Positions 6,934-18,007 of a stretch of 64,000 nucleotides of DNA are shown in pieces. Source of the DNA: Sphingomonas sp. LY54 (lineage in GTDB: Bacteria; Pseudomonadota; Alphaproteobacteria; Sphingomonadales; Sphingomonadaceae); NCBI RefSeq assembly GCF_035594035.1, contig NZ_CP141588.1:682001-746000 (forward strand). Reading direction: 5' to 3'. A program made the position numbers and the translations under genes. Under the pieces are notes generated by a model. The model was not told where the DNA came from, made no database searches, and saw only the letters and a list, made by a program, of their open reading frames with translations. The stretch's first letter is position 1. Each line of letters opens with the position of its first letter.

Positions 6934-7401
6934 TCAGCGGCAGCGGATGAGGTCGACGTCGATCATCTCCGTGCCGGTGGCGCGCGACACCTTCATGCCG
7001 TCCGCGCCGTTGCGGGTCAGCGTCCAACGCTCCTGGCTGTCCATGCCCTCCGCGGTGCAGGCCAATGTCAGCACGACCTCGTCGCCCTCGCCGGCCACCC
7101 CTTTGACCGAGCAACTTGTCTCGCCGGCGGTATCGATCTCGTCTTTCCGGATGTCCCACACGCCGCCATGACAGAGTTGGGGCGTCGCGGCGAAGCGGCC
7201 GGTCCACACGAACGGCGTCGCCGCATTCTCCTGGCCCTCGGCCAAAGCCTCGCCTTCCGCCGCCGAAGTCGCCGCGCCGACCGCGGCCGGCTGCGCGGGC
7301 GCGACCGCCGCGGTTTCGTTGCCGCTCTCGCGATCGACTTCGGTCCCGCCCCCGCATCCGGCGAGCGCGATCATGGCGAAACAGGGCAGCAAGCGACGCA
7401 T
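6934..7401 (-). CDS. Hypothetical lipoprotein
   Basis: A lipoprotein signal (MRRLLPCFAMIALAGC, lipobox LAGC) ends at Cys16. An acidic Ala/Glu-rich spacer follows, then a globular domain (about 70-155) with four further cysteines (LCHGG, SCSVKG, LACTAEG, IRCR) that could form two disulfides in the periplasm. ATG 7401 is chosen over the in-frame ATG at 7425 because it gives a standard lipoprotein signal. It is 155 residues. Its 3' end lies close behind the start of the prepilin peptidase gene (same strand), so they may be cotranscribed. Function is not recognised. Confidence 0.75.
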   Translation of the reverse strand: MRRLLPCFAMIALAGCGGGTEVDRESGNETAAVAPAQPAAVGAATSAAEGEALAEGQENAATPFVWTGRFAATPQLCHGGVWDIRKDEIDTAGETSCSVKGVAGEGDEVVLTLACTAEGMDSQERWTLTRNGADGMKVSRATGTEMIDVDLIRCR

Positions 7402-7462
7402 CGAACATCCTCTACGAAATGACATCTCCGGCGTCCAACGGCCGCCGGCGCGGGCGGTTGCC

Positions 7463-8302
7463 TCAGCCGAGCGCCGCCAGAATGCGCTGCGCCTGGACGA
7501 GGTGCGGCCGGTCGATCATCCTGCCGTCGAGCGACAACGCCCCCGCTCCGGGATGGGCTGCGAAGGCCGCGACCACGGCGCGGGCATGCGCCACCTCCGC
7601 CTCGGACGGCGTGAAGGCGGCGTTGATCACCGGCACCTGGTCGGGATGGATCGCCATCATGCCGGTAAAGCCGTCGCGCCGCGCGCGCGCGGCATAAGCG
7701 GCGAGCCCGTCGAGGTCGCGAAAGGCGGGGAAAACGGTCTCGATCGGCGCCACCCCGGCCGCCGCCGCGCCGAACAGGCAGAGCGAACGCGCCAGCTCGT
7801 ACGGGGCCGTGTAGCGCCCATCCTCTTCGCGCGACGTCGCCGCGCCGATCGCCGCCGGCAGATCCTCGGCACCCCAGGTGAGCCCGGCGAGCCGCTTCGT
7901 GCCGCCATAGGTGCCGAGCTGGAACATTGCTGCCGGAGTCTCTGTGGCGATGGCGAGGATCTGCGCGGTCGCGTTGCCCGCCCGCGTCAGCCGCTGCGCC
8001 AGATCGGTCACCGATGCGCCGCCCTCGGCCTTGGGCAGCACGATCCCGTCCGGCCGCGCGCCGAGGATCGCCTGCAGGTCCTTTTCCGCCTCGGGGCCGT
8101 CGAGCGGGTTGATCCGCACCCACAGGCTGGCGGTCGGATGCGCCGCGACGAAGGCGGCGACCGCGCGCCGCGCCTCGGGCTTGGCCGCCGGCGCGACCGC
8201 GTCCTCGAGATCGAGGATCAGCGCGTCGGCGCCGCAGCCGAGCGCCTTTTCCATCCGGTCCGGCCGGTCGCCCGGCACGAACAAAAGCGAACGCAGCCTC
8301 AT
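7463..8302 (-). CDS. CitE-type beta-hydroxyacyl-CoA lyase (HpcH/HpaI family)
   Basis: This 279-residue TIM-barrel protein is of the citrate-lyase-beta/malyl-CoA-lyase family. It has '[16 protein letters not shown]', the metal-binding 'LILDLEDAV', 'WVRINPLDG' and '[12 protein letters not shown]'. No citrate lyase alpha or ACP subunit is nearby. Context argues for cleavage of 3-hydroxy-3-methylglutaryl-CoA, or a related beta-hydroxyacyl-CoA, at the end of leucine breakdown. The same neighbour set (CitE-like, MaoC, acyl-CoA dehydrogenase, two carboxylase subunits) is known from Mycobacterium tuberculosis Rv2498c-Rv2502c. No classical HMG-CoA lyase is present in the window. ATG 8302 overlaps the MaoC stop (ATGA). 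Confidence 0.85.
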
Positions 8303-8751
8303 GCCGGCCGCCGCTGCATCAGGGCGGTGCGCTCGCACACGCACACCGTCTCGCCGTTTTGGTTGAGCATGCGATGCTCGAAGGTGACGATGCCGGCGTC
8401 GGGCCGCGAGCCCGAATCCTTGAGGGCGATCACCTCGGTCTCGGCGCGAAGCGTGTCGCCGATGAAGACCGGCTTGGGCATGCGAACCTTGTCGTAGCCC
8501 AGATTGGCGACGAGCGTGCCGAGCGTCGTGTCGCCGACCGACAGGCCGACCATCAAGGCGAAGGTGAAGGTGCCGTTGACGACGATTCGGCCGAACTCGG
8601 TCGCGGCCGCATATTCGGCGTCGAGATGGAGCGGCTGCGGATTGTGGGTCAGCGCCGAGATGAGGAGATTGTCGGTCTCGGTGACGGTCCGGTGCGGCTG
8701 GTGCGCCAGCCGGTCGCCGATCGTCCACTCGTCGAAATAGCGGCCGGGCAC
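8299..8751 (-). CDS. MaoC-family hydratase (likely 3-methylglutaconyl-CoA hydratase)
   Basis: This 150-residue single hot-dog-fold protein carries the hydratase-2 type motif '[14 protein letters not shown]' and '[13 protein letters not shown]'. Members hydrate enoyl-CoA esters. In this operon the missing step between methylcrotonyl-CoA carboxylase and the lyase is hydration of 3-methylglutaconyl-CoA, and no crotonase-family gene is present, so this protein is the natural candidate. It is coupled to the CitE-like gene by an ATGA overlap. It is separated from mccA by about 100 bp holding a palindromic repeat. Confidence 0.85.
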
Positions 8752-8760
8752 GGCGCTACC

Positions 8761-8844
8761 GCGTCACCCCGGCGCAGGCCGGGGTCTCGGCGGGCAGGGC
8801 CGCGCCCTCTTGTTCTGGGATCCCGGCCTTCGCCGGGATGACGG
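8761..8844. repeat. Intergenic palindromic repeat (CCCCGGC..GCCGGG type)
   Basis: The outer arms CGTCACCCCGGC (8762-8773) and GCCGGGATGACG (8832-8843) are imperfect inverted copies. Each contains its own small hairpin: CCCCGGCGCAGGCCGGGG, and ATCCCGGCCTTCGCCGGGAT (8820-8839). This is the layout of bacterial interspersed palindromic elements common in sphingomonads. It fills the only non-coding gap between maoC and mccA in an otherwise tight operon. Confidence 0.7.
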
Positions 8845-8853
8845 CGTCCTGCA

Positions 8854-10746
8854 TCATTCCCCCTTCCTCTCGATCCGCACCAGCAAGGTGCCTTCGCTCA
8901 CTTGCGCGCCCTCGGCGGCGTGGAGCTCGGCGACGATACCGTCGAACGGGGCGAGAAGGCTATGCTCCATCTTCATCGCCTCCAGCGTGACGAGCTTCGC
9001 GCCCTTGGCGACGAGGTCGCCCTGGCGCGCGTCGACCGCGATCACGCGCCCCGGCATCGGCGACACCAACGCCCCGTCGGACGCGGCGTCGCCGCCCGCG
9101 GCCCCGCTCGCCCCGGGCAAAGTAAAGGCGAAGGCCTGGCCGTCGGCGAAGACCAGCATCGCGTCGCCATGGGCGGTGGCGGCGCCCTCGAGTTCCTGCT
9201 CCTCGCCGAGCGCGACCGCGCGTGTCTCGCCGCCATGGCTCAAGGCCACGCGCAGGTCCGGCGCGGCATTGGCGCGGAAGCCCTGCAGCGCGCGCCACGG
9301 ATCGGCCCCATCCGAAGCCCCGCCGAAATCGGACGCGAGCATCGCCTCGGCCGCCAGGTTCCAGATGCCCTCGCCCGGCCTGGAATCGGGCACGAGACGG
9401 TCGATCCGCGCCGGGATGAAGGCGGTATCGACGTCGCCGGCGCGGAAATCGGGATCGTCCGCGGCGCAGGCGAGGAAAGCTGCGTTAGTCTTGACCGGCC
9501 ACACCTCGACCTGTTGCAGCGTATCCACCAGCCGGTCGATCGCCTCGCCGCGGGTGGCGCCGGTGGCGATCAGCTTGGCGACCATCGGGTCGTAATAAGG
9601 GCTGATCCGGTCGCCTTCCTCGACGCCGGTATCGATGCGGATGCGCCCGCCCAGCACGAAATGATCGAGCCGTCCGGTCGAAGGCAGGAATTCGTGGGCC
9701 GGATCCTCGGCATAGAGCCGCGCCTCCATCGCCCAGCCGGCGATCGATAGCTCGTCCTGCCGCTTCGGCAGCGTCTCGCCTGAGGCCACGCGCAATTGCC
9801 ACTCGACCAAGTCCTGGCCGGTAATCTCCTCGGTCACCGGATGCTCGACCTGGAGCCGCGTGTTCATTTCCATGAACCAGATGCGGTCGGCGCGCAGGCC
9901 TTCGGACGCGTCGGCGATGAACTCGATCGTGCCCGCGCCGACATAATCCACCGCCTGCGCCGCCTTGACCGCGGCGCCGCAGACCGCCGCGCGCGTCGCT
10001 GCGTCCATGCCCGGCGCGGGTGCTTCCTCGATCACTTTCTGGTGGCGGCGCTGCAGCGAGCAGTCGCGCTCGAACAGATGGACGACATTGCCGTGCGTAT
10101 CTCCGAACACCTGCACCTCGATATGGCGCGGCCGCTCGATATATTTCTCGATGAGGACGCGGTCGTCGCCGAACGACGAGGCCGCTTCGCGCTTGCAGCT
10201 TTGCAGCATGTCGGCGAACTCGCCTGCCGCATTGACCTTGCGCATCCCCTTGCCGCCGCCGCCCGCGACCGCCTTGATCAGCACCGGATAGCCGATCGCG
10301 TCGGCCTCGGTCTTGAGGCGATCGGGGCTCTGGTCGTCGCCGAGATAGCCAGGCGTGGTCGGCACTCCGGCTGCGTCCATCAGCCGCTTGGCCGCGTCCT
10401 TGAGGCCCATGGCGGTGATGCTGGCCGGATTGGGGCCGACCCAGACCAAGCCGGCGTCGATCACTGCCTGCGCGAAGGCAGCGTTTTCAGACAGGAAGCC
10501 GTAGCCCGGATGGATCGCCTCGGCGCCCGAGGCTCTGGCGGCGGCGATGACCCGCTCCCCGACCAGATAGCTCTCCCGCGCCGGGCTCGGCCCGATATGC
10601 ACCGCCTCGTCCGCCTCGCGCACATGCAGCGCGTGCCGGTCCGCGTCGGAGAAGACGGCGACGGTGCGGATGCCGAGCCGCCGCGCGGTCCGGATGATCC
10701 GGCAGGCGATCTCGCCCCGGTTGGCGATGAGAAGGGAGCGGATCAT
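8854..10746 (-). CDS. mccA: Methylcrotonyl-CoA carboxylase alpha (biotin) subunit
   Basis: This 630-residue biotin-dependent carboxylase subunit has the biotin carboxylase domain at about 1-445 ('LIANRGEIACRI', ATP loop 'GGGGKGMRKV', 'MEMNTRLQVEHPVTE'). A linker domain follows and then a C-terminal biotinyl domain with EAMKMEH, biotinyl lysine K592. It carboxylates biotin with ATP and bicarbonate for transfer by the beta subunit. Substrate is inferred from the partner beta subunit and the isovaleryl-CoA dehydrogenase upstream. Biotin carboxylase subunits of this shape also serve propionyl- or geranyl-CoA. ATG 10746 begins the conserved MIRSLLIANRGE. Confidence 0.9.
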   Translation of the reverse strand: MIRSLLIANRGEIACRIIRTARRLGIRTVAVFSDADRHALHVREADEAVHIGPSPARESYLVGERVIAAARASGAEAIHPGYGFLSENAAFAQAVIDAGLVWVGPNPASITAMGLKDAAKRLMDAAGVPTTPGYLGDDQSPDRLKTEADAIGYPVLIKAVAGGGGKGMRKVNAAGEFADMLQSCKREAASSFGDDRVLIEKYIERPRHIEVQVFGDTHGNVVHLFERDCSLQRRHQKVIEEAPAPGMDAATRAAVCGAAVKAAQAVDYVGAGTIEFIADASEGLRADRIWFMEMNTRLQVEHPVTEEITGQDLVEWQLRVASGETLPKRQDELSIAGWAMEARLYAEDPAHEFLPSTGRLDHFVLGGRIRIDTGVEEGDRISPYYDPMVAKLIATGATRGEAIDRLVDTLQQVEVWPVKTNAAFLACAADDPDFRAGDVDTAFIPARIDRLVPDSRPGEGIWNLAAEAMLASDFGGASDGADPWRALQGFRANAAPDLRVALSHGGETRAVALGEEQELEGAATAHGDAMLVFADGQAFAFTLPGASGAAGGDAASDGALVSPMPGRVIAVDARQGDLVAKGAKLVTLEAMKMEHSLLAPFDGIVAELHAAEGAQVSEGTLLVRIERKGE

Positions 10747-10753
10747 AATGCGA

Positions 10754-10807
10754 TCCTCCCCGGCACGGGGAGGGGGACCATGCGCAGCATGGTGGAGGGG
10801 CTGGCAC
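10754..10807. repeat. Palindromic repeat copy A flanking DUF559 gene
   Basis: The element begins TCCTCCCCGGCACGGGGAGG and continues through a hairpin ACCATGCGCAGCATGGT to GGAGGGGCTGGCACG. It is the inverted counterpart of copy B (11148-11200) and has the same orientation as copy C (11211-11267). The DUF559 start codon follows at 10809, directly at its edge. Confidence 0.85.
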
Positions 10808-10808
10808 G

Positions 10809-11204
10809 ATGCTGACAGGTCCAGGCGCGACGATCGGCAAGGCCCGCAGGCTGCGGCGGCAGATGACCCTGCCCGAGGTTTTGCTGTGGCGCGCGCTCCG
10901 GGAGCGCCCCGGCGGTTTCAAGTTCAGAAGACAGCATCCGGCAGGTCCGTTCGTCTTGGATTTCGTGTGCCTCGAAGCGCGGCTGGCCATTGAGGTGGAT
11001 GGAGCGGCGCACGATCGGGGTGCCATTCCGGCGGGCGACGAAGCGCGCGACGAATGGCTGATGGCGCAGGGTTTCAGGACCCTTCGCATCCCTGCGCGGG
11101 AAGTCCTGTCCAACCTGGACGGAGCGCTCGCCCACATCGTTGCTCAATGCCAGCCCCTCCACCGTCCTGCGGACGGTCCCCCTCCCCGTACCGGGGAGGA
11201 TTGA
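10809..11204 (+). CDS. DUF559 (Vsr-like endonuclease fold) protein
   Basis: This 131-residue protein of the DUF559 family is distantly related to very-short-patch-repair and other PD-(D/E)XK nucleases. It shows 'RRLRRQMTLPEVLLWRALRE', the core 'FVLDFVCLEARLAIEVDGAAHD' (D..E.D nuclease-like residues) and 'RDEWLMAQGFRTLRIPAREVLSNLDG'. It is the only plus-strand gene inside the minus-strand leucine operon. Inverted palindromic repeats flank it, and its last residues (PLHRPADGPPPRTGED) are encoded by repeat copy B. Context suggests a small mobile or repeat-borne cassette. Activity is unproven. Confidence 0.85.
   Translation: MLTGPGATIGKARRLRRQMTLPEVLLWRALRERPGGFKFRRQHPAGPFVLDFVCLEARLAIEVDGAAHDRGAIPAGDEARDEWLMAQGFRTLRIPAREVLSNLDGALAHIVAQCQPLHRPADGPPPRTGED
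11148..11200. repeat. Palindromic repeat copy B (inverted relative to A and C)
   Basis: TGCCAGCCCCTCCACCGTCC leads through GGACGGT to CCCCCTCCCCGTACCGGGGAGGA. It is the reverse complement of copy A with a few substitutions. The end of the DUF559 reading frame lies inside it. Confidence 0.85.
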
Positions 11205-16565: not shown

Positions 16566-16659
16566 GCAACGACGGACGCTCGCGGAGACGTCGGCGGCGC
16601 CCTTCCCTTCGGCCCCTGTGCCGGTTATGGGTGACGCTTCCTTATGGGAGTGATCGACG

Positions 16660-16812
16660 ATGGGACCAGACGACATCGCACCGAACCAGAACCCCGCCGA
16701 AGCCCCGAAGCCCGATCTGCAGCCGTGGGATGCGCCCAAATTGCGTATCCTCGCTGCAAGCGCGGCGGAGTTCGGCGGCGCCGGGTCGATCGACGCCGAA
16801 GGTCTGTCCTGA
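16660..16812 (+). CDS. 50-residue peptide, candidate RiPP-like precursor
   Basis: ATG-to-TGA gives a 50-residue peptide with a good ribosome binding site (GGGAG, 9 nt before the ATG). The N-terminal half is acidic and Pro/Asn/Ala-rich (MGPDDIAPNQNPAEAPKPD). A leader-like motif 'WDAPKLRILAASAAEFGG' at about 23-40 recalls the W-x-(A/P)-P-x-L-x-x-L signature of lasso and related precursor leaders. The tail is short, polar and Gly/Ser/Asp-containing (AGSIDAEGLS). The gene ends 10 nt before the start of a TPR/2OG-Fe(II) oxygenase, so the two form a unit. No lasso cyclase or protease is adjacent. Precursor status is inference. Confidence 0.6.
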   Translation: MGPDDIAPNQNPAEAPKPDLQPWDAPKLRILAASAAEFGGAGSIDAEGLS

Positions 16813-16822
16813 CGTAGGGTCG

Positions 16823-18007
16823 ATGATCCGCTGGCGCCCGCCCGTCGGGGACAATGTCGCCGCGCCCGCGGTGGCCAGGTCCCTGCTCGAGCGGGCGATA
16901 GCGGCCAGCCCAGCCAATCCAATCCTGCGAATGAAGCGCGCCGACCTCAATCTCGACCGCTTCGATTTCGCTGCGGCAGCCTCAGACCTTGAGGCCGCGC
17001 TCCACGCCGACCCCGTCTTGCCGGGACTGCGGTCGCGGCTGGCCCGCTGCCGCAACGCGCTCGGCCAGCATCATGAAGCGCTGGCGGTCGGCGCCGAACC
17101 CGGCGACGCGCACGCGCTCTACCAACACGGCCTCGCCCTCGACGCTCTAGGCCGCGAGCAGGAGGCCGAGCGCGCCTATCGCGCCGTCCTCGATCAAGAC
17201 CCCCACCACCGCCACGCCTGCCGCAAGCTCTGCCGATTGCTGCGCCGGGCAGACCGTAGCGCTGAAATGCTCGCCGTTTGCGAAGACCTCGCCGCCCGCG
17301 GCGCGGCCCATGCACAACTCTTTTATGATTGGGGCATTGCGTCAGCGCTGACCGGCGATATCGGCCGCGCCCGCGCCTTGCTGTTCGACCGCGCCCGCGT
17401 CGCCGAGATCGCCCTGCCGGTTCCGGACGGTTTCGCCGACATCGCCGCCTTCCATGCCGCTCTGGCCGAGGAAATCCTCGGCAACCCGCACCGGCTGAGC
17501 GAGTTCGATCCGGGGGAGGAGGCCAATCGCGGCAGCAGCCGGGTCGAAGCCCTGTTCGCCGGTCGCCGGCCCGACATGATGCGCGCTCTGCTGCAAAGCC
17601 TGCAGCGGCTGGTCGACGATTATACCCCCTCTCCCGCCGGCCCGTTCGATCCCTGGCGCGCCGCCCGTCCTAACGCTGCGCGTCTCCGGGCTTGGGGCCT
17701 GATCCAGCGCCGCTCCGAGCATGAGGAATGGCACATCCACCGCGGCGGCTGGCTGAGCGGCGTCTATTATGTGCGCGTGCCGCGCGGCATCTCGGCGAAA
17801 GGCGAAGGGCGCGGCTGCATCGAGTTTGGGCCGCCGCGGCCGGTCGCCCGCTCGCAGCCCAACCTAATCTCGCCCTGGCGCTACGCCCCGCGCGAGGGGA
17901 TGCTGCTGCTCGCGCCTTCCCATTATTCGCACCGGACGATTCCGAGCGGAATCGATGAACATCGGATCAGCTTCGCCTTCGACGTGGTGCCGGACGAGCA
18001 GCCTTAA
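16823..18007 (+). CDS. TPR-containing putative 2OG-Fe(II) oxygenase
   Basis: This is 394 residues from the ATG at 16823; the same frame runs upstream to 16631, but that part is the shadow of the peptide gene. Tetratricopeptide-like repeats fill about residues 10-200 ('SLLERAIAASPANPILRMKRADLNLD', 'ALYQHGLALDALGREQEAERAYRAVLDQDP'). The C-terminal domain is a double-stranded beta-helix oxygenase of the 2OG-FeII_Oxy_5 type. H304 and H306 are in 'EEWHIHRGGWLSGVYYV', the distal H370 is in 'SHRTIP', and R381, which should bind 2-oxoglutarate, is in 'HRISFAF'. It is likely to hydroxylate a peptide or protein side chain. The small peptide just upstream is the natural candidate substrate. Confidence 0.85.
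   Translation: MIRWRPPVGDNVAAPAVARSLLERAIAASPANPILRMKRADLNLDRFDFAAAASDLEAALHADPVLPGLRSRLARCRNALGQHHEALAVGAEPGDAHALYQHGLALDALGREQEAERAYRAVLDQDPHHRHACRKLCRLLRRADRSAEMLAVCEDLAARGAAHAQLFYDWGIASALTGDIGRARALLFDRARVAEIALPVPDGFADIAAFHAALAEEILGNPHRLSEFDPGEEANRGSSRVEALFAGRRPDMMRALLQSLQRLVDDYTPSPAGPFDPWRAARPNAARLRAWGLIQRRSEHEEWHIHRGGWLSGVYYVRVPRGISAKGEGRGCIEFGPPRPVARSQPNLISPWRYAPREGMLLLAPSHYSHRTIPSGIDEHRISFAFDVVPDEQP

Follow-up and report, generated by a model that had tools for sequence, protein, structure and literature searches.

The peptide gene and its oxygenase partner

The window analysed here is a 64,000-nucleotide stretch of DNA from Sphingomonas sp. LY54. It includes a gene for a 50 amino acid peptide located immediately upstream of a gene for an oxygenase, with only 10 nucleotides (16813-16822) separating the two. 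The relevant features are the following.

16646..16650, plus strand: GGGAG, a sequence resembling a ribosome-binding site, 9 nucleotides upstream of the ATG (read from the sequence)
16660..16812, plus strand: peptide gene, 50 amino acids, ATG at 16660 and TGA at 16810-16812, stop included (supported by relatives and a frame test)
16660..16773, plus strand: putative leader, residues 1-38 (from alignments, with predicted cleavage before Gly39)
16774..16809, plus strand: putative core, G39-GAGSI-D45-A-E47-G-L-S50, numbered G1, D7, E9, G10 and S12 (from motif conservation)
16823..18007, plus strand: TPR/2OG-Fe(II) oxygenase gene, 394 amino acids, ATG at 16823, stop included (AlphaFold2 mean pLDDT 93.7)
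16865..17380, plus strand: TPR helices, approximately residues 15-186 (Pfam TPR; AlphaFold2 helices H15-28 to H180-186; matches to the MamA and OGT TPR structures)
17363..17992, plus strand: catalytic part, residues 181-390, with codons for H304, H306, H370 and R381 at 17732, 17738, 17930 and 17963

A scan for promoters and terminators found none. The oxygenase matches 2OG-FeII_Oxy_5 (PF13759) with an E-value of 4.7e-18 and a score of 65.9 bits, compared with a curated cut-off of 27, and it matches TPR_19 at E 1.1e-8. The residues W303, H304, H306, H370 and R381 are invariant across 33 aligned oxygenase sequences, and we take H304, H306, H370 and R381 to be the residues that bind iron and 2OG. 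The structures 2RG4 and 3BVC, both titled as uncharacterized proteins and resembling 2OG-FeII_Oxy_5, have chains of 206 and 203 residues that align to the catalytic part of the window enzyme only, and their titles name no substrate. There are four partial matches in a plasmid collection.

The peptide matches no Pfam or NCBIfam model at E<=1. Its close relatives in protein-database searches are 49-51 amino acids long and exhibit 56-76% identity over their full length. The peptide frame is the top-scoring of 36 frame pairs in each of three comparisons, and the scores against the matching region of two genus orthologues are 63 and 59 (runners-up 49 and 51). Conservation, this frame test and the profile score described below rule out a chance or non-coding open reading frame, and the peptide ORF is a real gene.

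The leader motif of the window peptide is W23-x-x-P26-x-L28-x-x-L31-x-A-S-A-A-E37-F38. Of 23 database proteins of this type, with the window peptide counted among them, 19 have the C-terminus G-x5-D-x-[ED]-G-x-S. The query alignment contained nine of these proteins, every one of which fits the motif, and 10 of the remaining 14 fit it too. Among the four that do not fit, three retain acids at core positions 7 and 9 and one (P0191) resembles the lasso-locus type discussed below. Gly1 and Asp7 both occur in 22 of the 23, and 22 likewise carry an acid at both position 7 and position 9. The core motif persists in relatives down to 38% identity. The oxygenase-linked peptide of genome G019, which was in the query alignment, ends GGSVHFDGVEILS and therefore has acids at 7 and 10 and no exact fit to the motif, and the peptides of genome G505 also depart from it. 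A variant core, GGGxxxDxDxxPS, in which acids are again located at 7 and 9, is found in the database relatives P0189, P0190 and P0192.

The preliminary description of this locus had reported a 50-residue ORF, a ribosome-binding site and a 10-nucleotide gap before an oxygenase with an intact HxH...H...R site. The sequence coordinates confirm the former, and the invariance of H304, H306, H370 and R381 in 33 sequences confirms the latter. It had also proposed that loss of the small frame where the oxygenase is kept would refute its reading. There is no such loss in the three full-length genus orthologues or in an orthologue of 52% identity, these being the genomes whose DNA was examined. The W-x-A-P-x-L-x-x-L motif was rightly called leader-like, and the alignments revise its typical form to W-x-x-P-x-[LMIV]-x-x-[LF]-x-[AT]-[SG]-x-A-E-x-G. 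What had been called a short polar tail is more than that, as the last 12 residues form a strongly conserved core.

Relationship to precursors of lasso-type loci

When the genus was searched for sequences similar to the aligned peptides, several relatives proved to adjoin lasso-type genes. An Asn_synthase gene (PF00733) is located no more than approximately 1.4 kb from the peptide in G021, G014, G023, G019 (contig 256), G012, G020 and G007. In the genome that contains the window, the local precursor lies some 10 kb from the lasso genes, and a giant repeat-protein gene and a short unassigned stretch intervene.

A profile built from these eight lasso-locus precursors of the genus, without any window-type sequence, scores the window peptide at 24.5 bits (E 1.2e-6 among 1322 sequences). 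By comparison, 1000 shuffles reach no more than 7.6 bits, and among 306 small ORFs of the window, a set that includes the peptide, the runner-up to the peptide reaches 6.2. The same profile gives 31.6-39.6 bits for P0160, P0164, P0166, P0167 and P0173, 25.7 and 33.8 bits for two peptides of G019, and 14.8 bits for that of G017. A profile of window-type sequences gives 73-91 bits for the three oxygenase-linked peptides of the genus, which are members of that profile, and at most 38 for the other genus peptides tested.

The leader motif in print for lasso precursors is YxxPxL, and Thr is usual at leader position -2, with Ile and Val as exceptions (PMC10368454, in the portions available). The window peptide and the eight lasso-locus precursors share a W-x-x-P-x-L leader wherein Trp replaces Tyr. 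A lasso core is expected to begin with Gly or another small residue and to have Asp or Glu at 7-9, and the window core agrees with this (G1 and D7). All eight lasso-locus precursors carry an acid at core position 7 or 8, which corresponds to a ring of 7 or 8, but a second acid two residues later is absent from every one of them. The Thr at -2 is lacking from the window peptide; if the core starts at Gly39 this position is Glu37, and all eight lasso-locus relatives also have Glu in the same register. The window peptide belongs to the precursor family of lasso-type loci.

Pairing of peptide and oxygenase across genomes

There are three full-length oxygenase orthologues in 26 genus genomes, namely the window enzyme itself (100%) and those of G019 (62%) and G017 (60%). 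A peptide of the same kind is found upstream on the same strand in all three. The gap is 10 nucleotides in G017, as in the window, and 139 nucleotides in G019 if its oxygenase starts at GTG. A second, divergent peptide is located near the pair in G019. There are 12 other TPR-oxygenase matches in the genus (28-35% identity), and none has the peptide in its 1.5-kb flanks at E<0.1, the best value being 0.18. This absence speaks against a generic TPR-oxygenase that happens to lie beside the peptide gene. One of the 12 may have been counted wrongly as lacking a peptide, because a diverged W-peptide and a kinase-like gene adjoin the oxygenase at the locus of that best match (L027, G006:C1).

The class sample comprises 385 genomes, among them the window's own and some of its family, and 36 of these match the oxygenase at E<=1e-25. 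Besides the window enzyme, only that of G505, which is from another family, exceeds 50% identity (52%). It is preceded by a W-x-x-P peptide 43 nucleotides upstream on the same strand, and a second such peptide lies on the opposite strand approximately 0.7 kb behind the oxygenase. These two peptides score E-values of 3.2e-4 and 2.6e-5 with the window-type profile and 0.11 and 0.011 with the lasso-locus profile (511 ORFs). No peptide was seen near the weaker class oxygenases (31-33% identity) in the three genomes examined of 34.

In the database, the best 120 of 322 oxygenase homologues were considered. The longest contigs for the oxygenases P0002, P0003, P0004 and P0032 are 1726, 23875, 2012 and 5569 bases, and the window-type peptides P0179, P0167 and P0182 together, P0166 and P0186 have, respectively, the same contig sizes and sources. 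From this match we infer that each oxygenase shares a contig with its peptide. For 115 of the 120 homologues (the window enzyme set apart) there is no window-type database peptide on a contig of the same size; small ORFs are often absent from the database, and the DNA encoding P0020, the G019 oxygenase, does hold the peptide. Overall, the pairing of peptide and oxygenase is conserved.

There are two arrangements worth recording separately. In G505 (L179, 4724-9556), the pair and the opposite-strand peptide occur with PRC-barrel-like and ABC-transporter-like genes, both named by eye. At L167 (G006:C1:136000-152000, approximately 7110-11133), the genes for a diverged W-peptide and a TPR-2OG oxygenase are arranged tail to tail. 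Next come an HPr-kinase-like gene, which scores under the Pfam cut-off, and a GT8 glycosyltransferase gene. This locus is perhaps another peptide-tailoring mini-locus.

Related oxygenases among lasso-type genes

Nine of 397 family genomes match the oxygenase at E<=1e-30, the window's own included. Five of the other eight (G250, G281, G227, G306 and G089) have lasso-type genes adjoining the oxygenase. The G250 oxygenase has a peptide 12 nucleotides upstream and PqqD, Transglut_core3 (B2) and nucleotidyltransferase genes beside it. That of G281 is accompanied by genes for PqqD, Asn_synthase and B2 and by one that resembles HPr kinase but scores slightly below the Pfam cut-off, and its sole peptide candidate by motif in the fetched stretch is approximately 6 kb away. 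The oxygenases of G227 and G306 adjoin PqqD and B2, and a search by motif in the fetched stretches of these two genomes found no peptide. The G089 oxygenase adjoins Asn_synthase.

In the remaining three genomes (G348, G376 and G192) there are isolated pairs, each consisting of an oxygenase with one to three W-x-x-P peptides. The diverged peptides of these genomes and of G250 were first seen by motif. With the lasso-locus profile, those of G348 score 14.7 and 7.8 bits, that of G376 13.2, that of G250 12.7 and that of G192 4.6; the scores of the G192 peptide and the weaker G348 peptide are no better than shuffles, and the assignment of these two is by motif and position. The peptides of the isolated pairs (L083, L084 and L085) are arranged in tandem where there are several, and peptides and TPR-oxygenase are found close to a typA/bipA-like gene, whose identity was checked with Pfam in L083 only. 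No lasso enzymes were recognised in these three fetched stretches.

The node of the oxygenase tree that joins the window clade with the lasso-linked oxygenases has a weak support of only 0.48 and also includes two general oxygenases. The G306 oxygenase groups with the general ones, despite lying among lasso-type genes.

Core enzymes elsewhere in the genome

No lasso enzymes, B and C included, were recognised near the window pair, and the preliminary description had likewise noted no known lasso enzymes beside it. Its reading of the locus as either an undescribed minimal RiPP-like pair or a micropeptide that stands alone is not supported as stated, since the peptide family is that of lasso-locus precursors and related TPR-oxygenases sit among lasso-type genes.

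Core enzymes are present elsewhere in the genome. There is one Transglut_core3 match (B2, PF13471; 2,612,384-2,612,719) and one PqqD match (2,614,702-2,614,902), and Asn_synthase and NTP_transf_5 genes lie alongside them. Three precursors with the same leader motif are located at 0.611, 0.699 (the window) and 2.601 Mb. Thus, the window peptide and the only core set found, at approximately 2.61 Mb, are some 1.9 Mb apart; on a circular chromosome, the distance in the other direction would be 1.4 Mb. The precursor at 0.611 Mb (G000:C1:611094-611255, minus strand, in L061 and L093) is a second isolated one, with the core GTGGAGEGGFGTS and no pathway gene recognised beside it. A kinase-like homologue at 2.903 Mb is weakly identified: it has no Pfam match at E<=1e-3 and shares 43% identity with a G014 gene that was called kinase-like by eye.

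Both B2 and PqqD are found in all 11 oxygenase-bearing genomes searched. The baseline for B2 in the family is 187 of 397 genomes, and 9 of 9 by chance would have a probability of 0.001; this co-occurrence is near trivial for several of the nine because their oxygenase lies among lasso-type genes. If only the isolated pairs are counted (the window's genome, G348, G376 and G192), B2 is present in four of four, with a chance of approximately 0.05 from the same baseline and with genomes that are related. There are three B2 genes in G505, all on contigs other than that of the pair. Among peptide-less class controls, which have a TPR-oxygenase at 31-33% identity, B2 is found in none of three.

One alternative is a stand-alone two-gene system wherein the oxygenase hydroxylates the peptide and a housekeeping protease trims it, without lasso chemistry. 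The lack of recognised lasso genes in the neighbourhood would fit this proposal, as would a core that is short for a lasso and the recurrence of the isolated pair in G017, G019 and G505, with diverged versions in G348, G376 and G192 (G017 and G019 being fragmented drafts with short contigs). However, the precursor family is that of lasso loci, and the occurrence of B2 in 11 of 11 oxygenase genomes and in G505, versus none of the three peptide-less class controls (three of 34 looked at), also argues against it. We consider this alternative rather unlikely.

The same empty neighbourhood might be expected from a decayed lasso gene set, in which a precursor and a tailoring gene were left behind after loss of the core genes. 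This is very improbable and we reject it on the conservation of the core, given that the motif is kept down to 38% identity. In addition, the key enzyme residues are invariant in 33 sequences, and the pair recurs beside unrelated genes in other genera.

A lasso pathway that looks dispersed too, judging by its gene positions, is that of the draft genome G006. There, a cyclase and a precursor are found on contig 17, and B2 and a nucleotidyltransferase on contig 35; contig 21 carries additional precursors, as does contig 26 close to one end.

A proposed satellite cassette

We favour, with a probability of roughly 0.55, a model wherein the two genes form a satellite cassette that belongs to a lasso-type RiPP pathway and carries its own tailoring hydroxylase, and whose precursor is cleaved and cyclised in trans. 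The involvement of lasso-type enzymes with this peptide is a conclusion that we hold with moderate confidence. Maturation in trans is suggested by the co-occurrence of the genes, and the hydroxylation, its site and any threading are predictions.

Once the precursor is made, its W-x-x-P-x-L leader would be read by the TPR part of the oxygenase, by the PqqD-type B1 protein, or by both. The oxygenase, with Fe(II), O2 and 2-oxoglutarate, would then add a hydroxyl group to the core while the peptide is still linear, most likely at Asp7 or at the acidic residue 9, which are conserved side chains of GxxxxxDx[ED]GxS. Acids are found at 7 and 9 in 22 of 23 proteins, versus none two residues on in the lasso-locus precursors, and therefore Asp7 and residue 9 are the first candidates. 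The peptide of G019 and the diverged peptides lack this 7/9 spacing. The enzymes encoded at 2.61 Mb (PqqD B1, Transglut_core3 B2 and an Asn-synthase-like C, with the nucleotidyltransferase) would cut off the leader ahead of Gly39 and link Asp7 to the amine of Gly1. Perhaps the conserved C-terminal Ser is phosphorylated by an HPr-kinase-like protein. In the available parts of the literature, lasso kinases are described as phosphorylating a C-terminal Ser.

With a 7-residue ring, five of the 12 core residues are left for the tail, which is very short for a threaded lasso. We do not claim a threaded product because of the Glu at -2 and because the 12-residue core has only five residues past the ring acid. 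One possibility is that the distant PqqD and Transglut_core3 proteins merely cut the leader, so that the product is a linear peptide or an unthreaded cycle, i.e. a hydroxylated dodecapeptide. The five residues after Asp7 are compatible with such a product, and the leader motif, which B1 and B2 would read, is the part common to lasso-locus precursors. However, 22 of 23 proteins retain Gly1 and Asp7, between which the cyclase would form its bond, and 19 of them show the complete motif. The eight lasso-locus precursors have the same spacing, with a ring of 7 or 8. This outcome thus seems unlikely, and a cassette whose precursor is also cyclised in trans is our preferred reading.

Comparison with known systems

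The closest resemblance is to split-B, kinase-type lasso sets such as those for paeninodin and pseudomycoidin, which comprise A, B1 (PqqD), B2 (Transglut_core3), C (Asn synthase), K and N. Shared with these sets are an aromatic-x-x-P-x-L leader, Gly at core position 1, an acid at 7 or 8 and a C-terminal Ser, and the window's genome has homologues of C, B1, B2 and N. Unlike in these sets, the window peptide has Trp in place of Tyr, Glu in place of Thr at -2 and a 12-residue core, and its gene is located far from the core genes and beside an oxygenase.

There are several precedents for parts of the model, each drawn from the available portions of the sources given. CanE, the 2OG hydroxylase for canucin A, hydroxylates Asp14 on the linear precursor with the help of B1 (PMC9266682). 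It is thus a 2OG enzyme that tailors a linear lasso precursor at Asp (PMC9266682, PMC8498205). By analogy, the window oxygenase should act on the linear precursor before cleavage. In contrast to the window oxygenase, CanE is encoded in its own lasso gene set (PMC9266682, PMC8498205). The citrulassin PAD is a lasso tailoring enzyme encoded away from the lasso set (PMC9266682, PMC8498205), although only the enzyme is distant in that case, whereas in the window precursor and enzyme are together, away from the core genes. Human AspH combines a TPR part with a 2OG domain that acts on Asp or Asn in a peptide motif (PMC6817910, PMC13168262). AspH is an analogy only. It gave no sequence match to the window oxygenase, and no AspH chain is among the 50 structure matches listed, although the catalytic domains may still share a fold family.

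In the literature searched, which covers few subscription papers and comprises titles, abstract openings and the available portions of PMC9266682, PMC10368454, PMC8498205, PMC5067487 and PMC12670498, there is no TPR-2OG lasso oxygenase and no precursor located far from its lasso genes. What is new here, on balance, would be an oxygenase-tailored satellite precursor within a known lasso-type pathway. If maturation in trans is true, several precursors at scattered sites depend on a single lasso core set, and the pair allows a new RiPP hydroxylase family, whose 12-residue substrate is strongly conserved, to be tested simply with two genes.

Mining of genomes for lasso peptides usually searches around the B and C genes. 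A precursor of the window type would be missed because there is no core enzyme nearby and no Pfam or NCBIfam match. A more general proposal, which we put forward tentatively and hold to be somewhat less probable than the satellite cassette itself, is that the lasso pathway of sphingomonads, and of some other Alphaproteobacteria, is dispersed. A single core set (B1, B2 and C) would serve several precursors scattered along the chromosome, and some of these would reside in satellite cassettes that bring a tailoring enzyme of their own. The TPR-2OG oxygenases encoded there might then constitute a new RiPP hydroxylase group, which would use the TPR part to read the W-x-x-P leader and would mark Asp7 or the acid at 9 of a dodecapeptide core, giving unusually small hydroxylated peptides of lasso-type or lariat form.

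There are two further observations on gene neighbourhoods. According to the available part of the metanodin paper, a tetratricopeptide-repeat gene is found in one cloned set (BGC 38). Within the genus, the lasso-type precursor genes at L118, L065, L120, L064, L158 and L126 adjoin genes for giant repeat proteins that end in DFIL, DFVL, DFLI or DFVF, and some of these are also located beside genes resembling those of type I secretion, mostly named by eye.
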